Shown piece after piece: positions 11,127 through 45,304 of a DNA stretch of 64,000 bases. Position 1 is the first letter of the stretch; each line of letters begins with the position of its first letter. Location: NCBI RefSeq assembly GCF_900117415.1, contig NZ_FPEI01000002.1, forward strand, positions 62,001 through 126,000. The letters run 5' to 3'. A program made the translations under genes and the position numbers. Under the pieces are notes generated by a model. It was not told the DNA's origin and did no database searches. It saw only the letters and a program-made list of their open reading frames with translations. The DNA comes from Hyphomicrobium sp. CS1BSMeth3. GTDB taxonomy: Bacteria; Pseudomonadota; Alphaproteobacteria; Rhizobiales; Hyphomicrobiaceae.

Positions 11127-11294
11127 CATAGTGTAATGATCGAGAAATTCGCCCTATGAGGCGGCACGGTAGTGAGCGGATTTCTCGATCTGAATCACAC
11201 TAGCAAGACTATAATTCTGGTGTCCCTTTCGATTCCAAAGTTCGCTCGGAACACCAGCGCCGAGATCTGGCGAACTTCGGAATCGGGCCACCAG
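11127..11294 (-). repeat. Bipartite palindromic element, copy 1 (cysS leader)
   Basis: Two palindromes, B at 11126-11204 (79 bp) and A at 11217-11294 (78 bp), joined by the 12-bp spacer AAGACTATAATT. The order is reversed relative to the copies at 21666 and 45135. B begins 2 bp upstream of the cysS Shine-Dalgarno, so any cysS transcript starting beyond it carries the folded element as its 5' leader. Outer stem ends of A here are CTGGTG/CACCAG, while the other copies have CTAGTG/CACTAG and CCAGTG/CACTGG, so pairing is kept while the bases change. Short open frames inside it are by-products of the repeat. The rest of the gap (11295-11541) shows nothing beyond the ribosome-binding site of the next gene. 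Confidence 0.9.
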
Positions 11295-12791: not shown

Positions 12792-12884
12792 AGTCGTGTT
12801 TCTCCGGTCACGGTGCCTGAGCGCTTTACCACGCGAATTTGAACGCGCGTCGTTGCGCGCCGTCCACACGTGTGGCTGAGCGCG

Positions 12885-12914
12885 CTTTCATTTGGTCAAA
12901 GGCCATCCTATATT
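12885..12914 (+). promoter_or_regulatory. Putative promoter of ssrA
   Basis: CTTTCA (12885-12890) and TATATT (12909-12914) are separated by 18 bp, about 10 bp before the expected 5' end of the tmRNA precursor. The -10-like hexamer is good and the -35 is weak. It lies just outside the divergent CPBP reading frame. This is a pattern match only. Confidence 0.4.
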
Positions 12915-12920
12915 GAGGGT

Positions 12921-13289
12921 GCCGGATTCGTCCGGCTATGGCGATAAATGGACATCGGAATAAGCCTTTCGGACCCGGGGGCGGTACCCGGCGCCTCCAC
13001 CATCAGCCCACGAAGGTTCAGGCCACGGCCGTGGCACCCGCCAGGGGAACCGAAGTGCCCGTGGTCTGTTGATGGGGGCGAAATAGGATCGACGAGGGTG
13101 TAAAGGGTGCTCTTTTGCCCGGCATGATACCGCCGTTATCGGGTCACCAGAATAGTTGCCAACGACAACTATGCTGAGGCTGCTCTCGCTGCGTAATGCG
13201 GCTGGAATAGTCTGAACTTGAAGCCCTGTCGTCTAGCAACGGCAGGCGCGGTTCGGAGGGCACCGGGCAACAGAAGCCCTCCACTTACT
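12921..13289 (+). ncRNA. ssrA: Two-piece (circularly permuted) tmRNA
   Basis: tmRNA rescues ribosomes stalled on broken mRNAs and adds a degradation tag. The gene is permuted, as in other alphaproteobacteria. The acceptor piece comes first (about 12921-13002) and ends in GGCGCCTCCACCA at 12990-13002. A removed linker follows, and the coding piece begins GGGGGCGAAATAGGATCGAC at 13074, whose first bases pair with the acceptor end. The tag frame at 13158-13196 reads A-N-D-N-Y-A-E-A-A-L-A-A-stop. The T-arm stem CCGGG/CCCGG encloses GGCGGTA rather than the standard TTCRANN loop, an alphaproteobacterial peculiarity. Outer ends are approximate. sspB follows directly. Confidence 0.93.
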
Positions 13290-21665: not shown

Positions 21666-21833
21666 CTAGTGTCCCGTTTCCGAAGTTCGCTTAACCTCGA
21701 TGCTGGCGTCCCGAGCGAGCTTCGGAAACAAAAGGGACACTAGAAGCATAGTCTTGCTCGTGTGATTCAGGTCGAGAAATTCGCTCCATACCGTGCCGCG
21801 AGATCTGGCGAATTTCTCGATCATCACACGAGC
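21666..21833 (+). repeat. Bipartite palindromic element, copy 2 (yfgM-bamB gap)
   Basis: Palindrome A at 21666-21743 has outer arms CTAGTGTCCC and GGGACACTAG, and inner arms TTTCCGAAG and CTTCGGAAA. Palindrome B at 21756-21833 has outer arms GCTCGTGTGA and TCACACGAGC, and inner arms TCGAGAAATTCGC and GCGAATTTCTCGA. Both are 78 bp, joined by the 12-bp AAGCATAGTCTT. The element fills nearly all of the space between two minus-strand genes (bamB start 21658, YfgM-like stop 21842), so it would be transcribed within the operon. It is the same element as at 11127 and 45135. Confidence 0.92.
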
Positions 21834-45134: not shown

Positions 45135-45304
45135 CCAGTGTCCCGATTCCGAAGTTCGCCATCCCTCGATGCTGGTGGCGCGAGCGAACATCGGAATCAA
45201 AAGGGACACTGGGAAATATTCCCTTGGCTAGTGTGATTCAGATCGAGAAATTCGCTCCGTACGGTGCCGCGAAATCAGGCGAATTTCTCGATCATCACGC
45301 TAGC
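45135..45304 (+). repeat. Bipartite palindromic element, copy 3 (urtA-urtB gap)
   Basis: Palindrome A at 45135-45212 has outer arms CCAGTGTCCC and GGGACACTGG and inner ATTCCGA/TCGGAAT. Palindrome B at 45227-45304 has outer GCTAGTGTGA and TCACGCTAGC and inner TCGAGAAATTCGC/GCGAATTTCTCGA. The spacer is 14 bp and differs from the other copies. A starts 5 bp after the urtA stop. Compared with copies 1 and 2, stem positions have changed on both arms together (CTAG/CTAG becomes CCAG/CTGG; TTTCCG/CGGAAA becomes ATTCCG/CGGAAT). Within the 302-bp gap a further hairpin lies at 45360. Confidence 0.92.

Follow-up and report, generated by a model that had tools for sequence, protein, structure and literature searches.

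The window, by which we mean the whole 64,000-nt stretch analysed here, contains three copies of a dispersed element. Each copy is 167-169 bp long and consists of a hairpin A, a spacer of 13-15 nt and a hairpin B (Table 1). Copy 1 lies between a cysteinyl-tRNA synthetase gene and an acetyltransferase gene, copy 2 between a BamB-like gene and a TPR gene, which are 7 and 9 bp away, and copy 3 between the genes of a transporter binding protein and a permease. The initial annotation had reported three copies with this A-spacer-B build, which we confirm with slightly shifted borders. It had given hairpin B as 78-79 bp; the hairpin is present, but that border takes in one base pair outside the CTAG, and B of copy 2 comes to 76 nt. 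The window also carries an alphaproteobacterial tmRNA gene (12882-13285, 312 bits, tag ANDNYAEAALAA), the only feature that reaches threshold in an Rfam scan of the window. Matches of mir-3492 (27 bits, threshold 44) and MIR4239 (22.8 bits, threshold 100) to a window copy are below threshold and were taken as chance resemblances to a hairpin. At 20 other loci, no Rfam family was found at E <= 0.01.

An alignment of 32 copies from this genome, including the three of the window, defined the architecture. Hairpin A has a CTAG base, 10 + 15 bp, a 24-nt loop and an AAAA bulge, and hairpin B has 10 + 15 bp, a 23-nt loop and a TCA bulge. The bulge separates the 10-bp and 15-bp parts of each stem on one arm only; as both bulges are on the inner arms, both face the spacer. 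Hairpin A aligns with the reversed hairpin B through CTAGTGT, then GAT, then GAA, then TTCGC, indicating that the two are diverged versions of one hairpin and that the element is therefore an inverted pair. Standard pairs make up 98.0% of the stem cells across the 32 copies, and the B base of copy 1, with CTAG inside and CTAT outside, is an example of imperfect pairing. The sequence changes quoted earlier from the stems are present, namely the outer A pairs CTGG/CCAG, CTAG/CTAG and CCAG/CTGG, the inner change from GTTTCCG/CGGAAAC to GATTCCG/CGGAATC, and CTCG/CGAG against CTAG/CTAG in B. The predicted RNA fold of 21666-21833 has an energy of -89.8 kcal/mol versus -47.1 (sd 4.1) for shuffled sequences (z -10.4). 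The opposite strand also folds (z -7.5), as does the DNA (z -9.8), both against shuffles.

Table 1 Positions of the element copies in the window, and of copies with exchanged hairpins at other loci
Feature	Position	Strand	Details
Copy 1 (copy 11127), whole element	11128-11294	-	inverted
Copy 1 hairpin A	11217..11294	-	outer tetranucleotide CCAG at 11291-11294 on + strand
Copy 1 spacer	11204..11216	-	
Copy 1 hairpin B	11128..11203	-	outer tetranucleotide ATAG on + strand
Copy 2 (copy 21666, locus L001), whole element	21666-21832	+	borders revised
Copy 2 hairpin A	21666..21743	+	arm 21666-21690, loop 21691-21714, arm 21715-21729, bulge AAAA 21730-21733, arm 21734-21743
Copy 2 spacer	21744..21756	+	13 nt
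Copy 2 hairpin B	21757..21832	+	76 nt; arm 21757-21766, bulge TCA 21767-21769, arm 21770-21784, loop 21785-21807, arms 21808-21832
Copy 3 (copy 45135), whole element	45135-45303	+	
Copy 3 hairpin A	45135..45212	+	CCAG outside, CTGG inside
Copy 3 spacer	45213..45227	+	15 nt
Copy 3 hairpin B	45228..45303	+	
Copies with exchanged hairpins (types C/D)	L264:7208-7375, L205:2501-2668, L261:2501-2668, L270:5126-5294, L254:2501-2669		

The 6.02-Mb genome (G000) holds at least 97 copies at distinct places within the regions examined (E <= 1e-20). An initial blastn search, in which the best 40 of 149 candidates were scored, gave at least 41 full or nearly full copies. The 32 aligned copies served to build a covariance model, which returned 148 rows from the best 150 of 3943 candidates; 33 rows overlapping a better match on the other strand were left out, and the 115 used correspond to at least 111 distinct places, weak or partial ones included. 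Within the family Hyphomicrobiaceae, the architecture, at 165-170 bp, was found in 56 of 103 genomes, spread over 20 of 25 genera (E <= 1e-4). At the same threshold, 57 of the 397 genomes sampled in the order matched; they belong to 30 of 142 genera and, as read off the list, to 17 families. An exact 24-mer occurs in at least 88 stretches, and among the matches listed the labels are Hyphomicrobiaceae, Hyphomicrobium, Hyphomonadaceae, Rhizobiales, Hyphomicrobiales and one Pseudomonadota. Those labelled Hyphomonadaceae are many matches of one assembly (again among the matches listed). These JAIEQJ records (L079 and others) may be wrongly labelled and possibly belong to the same family as the present genome. 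No match was obtained by blastn in plasmids and phages, or with an exact 23-mer of the element in viral contigs. A search of the open-access literature yielded no description that we recognised as this element.

The sites of copies 1 and 2 are empty in the three congeners compared (G024, G026 and G027). A joined-flank search covered 39 further sites. One or more of the three congeners span 34 of these with no element in between (75 site-by-genome cases), and 5 have no empty relative among the three. Some copies are common to a relative: copy 3 has an orthologous copy in G027 (L306), the copy at L207 is likewise present in G027, and those at L236 and L251 and one of L178 are each present in a named relative. 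Site L265 was called empty in G024, yet it has CTAGTGTCCCG at the junction, with no model match. The orthologue of the L216 site in G027 (L366, G027:C408:6330-6640) has about 77 extra bases, also with no model match. A second dispersed repeat, about 180 bp long and containing a GGGGGAGG-rich palindrome, was noticed at L264:9273-9456 (G000:C5) and G000:C3:972669-972848; the two places are 88% identical, and the repeat is absent from the L264 place in three congeners.

The empty sites allowed the target to be read. We kept 30 of 86 junction comparisons, those with no gap within 8 bp, and left out the 56 with gaps at or near the junction. CTAG occurs at 6 of the 30 empty junctions versus 0 of 1376 shifted control positions, and NTAN at 12 of 30 versus 14 of 1376 (p = 6e-15); the middle of the other 18 lacks TA. 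When the letters were scored, one tetranucleotide fitted best in 40 of 52 empty-site comparisons of a first set (none in 7, two in 5; 3 of the 40 tied with two) and in 29 of 40 of a second set (none in 2, two in 9; 2 of the 29 tied with two); ties were counted for the smaller number, and one of the 29 is a filled site (L367). Wildcard scoring, a measure that rewards extra wildcards, favoured two tetranucleotides in 47 of 86 comparisons and one in 36, with 3 tied. Filled sites hold two tetranucleotides and empty sites mostly fit one, but within a copy the two end tetranucleotides agree no more often than expected by chance (Aout-Bout 2 versus 0.7 expected, 83 copies); a 4-bp duplication was not apparent from such comparisons of the ends, which gave no association. 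Both tetranucleotides may come from the target, as in a duplication, or one may be carried by the element. Head-to-tail tandem copies, nearly identical and with a single CTAG in common, were observed at L061:1501-1830 (G016), and the overlapping coordinates of another tandem at G032:C2:894924-895253 suggest one common CTAG.

According to our home-made gene caller, 68 of the 97 copies are between tandem genes, while the flanking genes are divergent for 25 copies and convergent for 4, and 1 copy is inside a called gene by a strict rule (3 by majority overlap). Of the 76 neighbouring 3' gene ends, 24 have the TAG of the element's CTAG as their stop codon. As a relative lacking the element already has CTAG at several such stop sites (L192, L189, L218, L223 and L204), the element used an existing site there. 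Outside the elements, the CTAG occurrences in the same DNA comprise 82 in intergenic positions, 46 within genes and 33 at stop codons. Effects on the host, namely the supply of TAG stops and longer gaps in tight operons, are seen as anatomy only. Annotators of Hyphomicrobiales gain from this a recognisable element that is able to supply stop codons and expand operon gaps.

The copies occupy sites that congeners have without the element, mostly intergenic, with a CTAG-like target and with CTAG or a variant at the bases of both end hairpins. The element is short, has many copies and terminal inverted repeats, contains no transposase gene, and has empty orthologous sites with a defined target, as MITEs do. 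We therefore consider it likely that it is a non-autonomous MITE-like mobile element of about 167 bp, directed to CTAG and moved in trans by an enzyme not found among the four transposase domain families searched. The suggestion of a selfish miniature element made from the window alone is supported by the many copies, the empty orthologous sites, the CTAG-like target and the tandem pair with one common CTAG. The ends would be the two long related hairpins, head to head across the short spacer. A transposase made elsewhere may act on both hairpin ends, with the bulge, the CTAG base and the fixed spacing as the putative features that it recognises. Such an enzyme would come from a family outside those searched, or may have been lost from the genome. 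If the element is mobile as we argue, about 100 non-autonomous copies with no match to the four usually suspected transposase domains turn the identification of the enzyme into a defined task.

MITEs such as RUP and the Correia type derive from IS630, IS5 or IS701 elements; IS630 prefers CTAG targets, and IS5 and IS701 prefer YTAR. Like them, the present element is short and intergenic, with terminal inverted repeats, a TA-containing target and a transposase that would act in trans. It could then be a MITE from a DDE insertion sequence of one of these types, with A and reversed B, which do align as terminal inverted repeats, being degenerate ones, and the CTAG-like target, often with TA in the middle, agrees with this. 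However, each end is itself a hairpin here, and the three transposase domains (DDE_3, DDE_Tnp_1 and DDE_5; PF13358, PF01609 and PF13546) have no match at E <= 0.001 in this genome. Some congeners have them, yet 14 congener loci with such DDE domains, scanned by motif and model, gave no clear element end (best 17 bits). We regard this origin as unlikely. One motif match among those loci, in L373, was read as chance. A motif scan of the examined loci, which was not exhaustive, gave lone halves, and no A-gene-B unit that would be a longer autonomous version was recognised among them.

A bolder form of the mobile-element reading would make these order-wide, double-hairpin miniature transposons of near-invariant geometry the substrates of an undescribed enzyme class. 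This class would recognise the folded ends and read CTAG by pairing with the hairpin base, so that the outer and inner bases coevolve. We hold this extension to be quite unlikely.

The initial annotation called the element unlike simple REP units, which is fair, but as an inverted pair of related hairpins it resembles a REPIN. REPIN/REP sequences of the GTAG and CGTC families are likewise high-copy, extragenic and non-autonomous inverted pairs of imperfect palindromes, as passages of PMC3116915 describe them, and one might suppose that the element is a REPIN family mobilised by a RAYT, the tyrosine transposase associated with REPs, whose gene was lost or missed here. The present units are 76-78 bp, in contrast to the 20-40 bp given for REP in part of PMC3733652, and are built into 165-170 bp with a bulge on the spacer side; the base is CTAG in the consensus, with no GTAG or CGTC tag. 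The element works like a REPIN or a MITE, and no RAYT, on which REPINs depend, is matched, since Y1_Tnp has no match at E <= 0.001 in this genome or its four congeners. Within the family, Y1_Tnp is present in 14 of 103 genomes, in 7 of 56 that bear the element versus 7 of 47 others, and thus shows no link with it. A RAYT-driven family is very unlikely on these grounds. The earlier statement that no transposase is nearby extends to the whole genome for four domain families (Y1/RAYT, IS630-, IS4/IS5- and IS701-type). IS200-type transposase genes adjoin element copies in two genomes (L168:2005-2173 and L170:1-92); as a source they were rejected, as the IS200 ends differ from those of the element. 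At L175:1179-1969 (G095), a Y1/RAYT-like gene is flanked by GGGGTCAGACC palindromes and ends at the gene end where the present genome (L199) has the element, so that two repeat systems use one site. Rhizobial RIME, the AB/C palindromes and Brucella Bru-RS are described, in the parts of PMC2573895 and PMC2267715 that bear on them, as dispersed intergenic palindromic elements of alphaproteobacteria. They are alike by description alone as repeats of related bacteria, and by the same description Bru-RS is 103-105 bp (PMC2267715) versus 165-170 here.

The end tetranucleotides of 83 copies covary only within a hairpin (Aout-Ain 6 versus 0.5 expected, Bin-Bout 23 versus 6.5). An IS200/IS605-type reading of the target would account for this, because the inner arm of A would be a guide that chose the host tetranucleotide by pairing, as IS608 chooses TTAC (PMC5934647, in the part concerned). 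The empty site of copy 1 is CCAG in G026, CCAA in G024 and CCGG in G027, and the A end fits; at L264:7905 the A end is CCAG, and two relatives have CCAG at the empty site. In both copies the inner arm of A is complementary to this end, as a guide would be. The B end fits the empty site better at the non-CTAG sites L220 and L257, however, and where the ends differ in fit the A end is favoured by the empty site in 12 comparisons and the B end in 15 (first-set count). Arm correction explains the pairing equally well, and no Y1 enzyme is matched in the genome, so we give a guide as little credit as a RAYT.

The changes in the stems had been called compensatory, and this proved real and order-wide. 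We aligned 39 copies with plain MAFFT, each taken from a different genome (38 are distinct). Two-sided changes affect 39 of the 50 pairs versus 18.0 in shuffles, and 213 cells versus 35.6, whereas slid structures used as a control give only 15-19 two-sided pairs. All 39 copies are 165-170 bp long, so the geometry is kept while the stem letters change. As the model search favours paired stems and relatedness makes shuffles easier to beat, the covariation supports selection but does not prove it. Hairpins of REPINs also show compensatory changes, according to passages of PMC3116915 and PMC3733652.

Strong covariation is often taken as a sign of functional RNA, and the element had been proposed as a folded transcript module between operon genes (an attenuator, stabiliser or terminator) in which compensatory substitutions preserve RNA pairing. 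The very stable folds, the many two-sided pairs and the number of copies between tandem genes are in line with it. Against it, both strands fold, and only the tmRNA attains an Rfam threshold in the window. A structural RNA that maintains its pairing is expected to have many more G.T than A.C cells on the transcribed strand. The first 32 copies alone gave G.T:A.C of 21:9 (p = 0.04), but the excess is gone in 83 canonical copies of the genome (43:52, binomial p 0.41). A further 82 copies from other genomes (L079-L158) gave 43:56 (p 0.23), and the 39-genome set gave 25:15, a weak lean to G.T (p 0.15), or 22:12 (p = 0.12) in a model-fitted alignment, so the strand-specific wobble tolerance of RNA, with G.U much above A.C, is not seen in the three larger sets, none of which is significantly unequal. 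One-sided changes to another standard pair number 23 cells in the 39-genome set versus the 213 two-sided ones. Placement in operon gaps does not speak for RNA, as the share between tandem genes is similar to the 226 of 340 for all gaps of at least 20 bp in the same regions. Between tandem genes, 27 copies point along and 41 against the gene direction (p = 0.11), which is no significant bias, and neither hairpin of copy 2 is followed by a T-run on either strand. An RNA module as the main reading was rejected on the mismatch balance, the orientation and the empty sites, and is highly improbable.

The co-change of the arms resembles an effect at the level of DNA rather than RNA. In keeping with this, covariation of the end tetranucleotides is confined to each hairpin and does not extend from one end of the element to the other. 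Among the 97 copies, the loop is inverted in 3 for hairpin A and in 1 for hairpin B (with the orientation unclear or no loop found in 12 and 20, respectively), and the bulge is lost in 2 for A and in 1 for B (unreadable in 8 and 6). At L199, the B bulge is filled in on the opposite arm. At the B base, one member of the orthologous pair L251/L159 has CTCG/CGAG where its counterpart has CTAG/CTAG. Template switching leaves homogenised arms and inverted spacers as its marks, as set out in sections of PMC8604942 and PMC8794818, and the inverted loops, together with the bulges that are lost or filled, point to the copying of DNA from one arm to the other. We believe that it is chiefly in the DNA that the arms would be kept complementary, as one arm may be copied from the other by quasi-palindrome template switching during replication or repair. 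Selection by the enzyme for the hairpin geometry would add to this, and an RNA role need not be assumed. The likeness to quasi-palindrome switching lies in arm homogenisation with spacer inversion; unlike the cases in those sections, the events here occur in a mobile element family, with about 100 copies in one genome as replicates. As the covariation is strong and order-wide with no clear wobble preference, the family lends itself to testing how arm correction in the DNA can mimic RNA covariation.

Hairpins are also exchanged between copies. A third type, C, (GTGTGGT...AAGTCCGCC) is found with B or with a fourth type D at the loci given in Table 1. The type D hairpin was observed in 38 of 42 examined JAIEQJ loci, and hairpin A in 33 of 46 other named loci.
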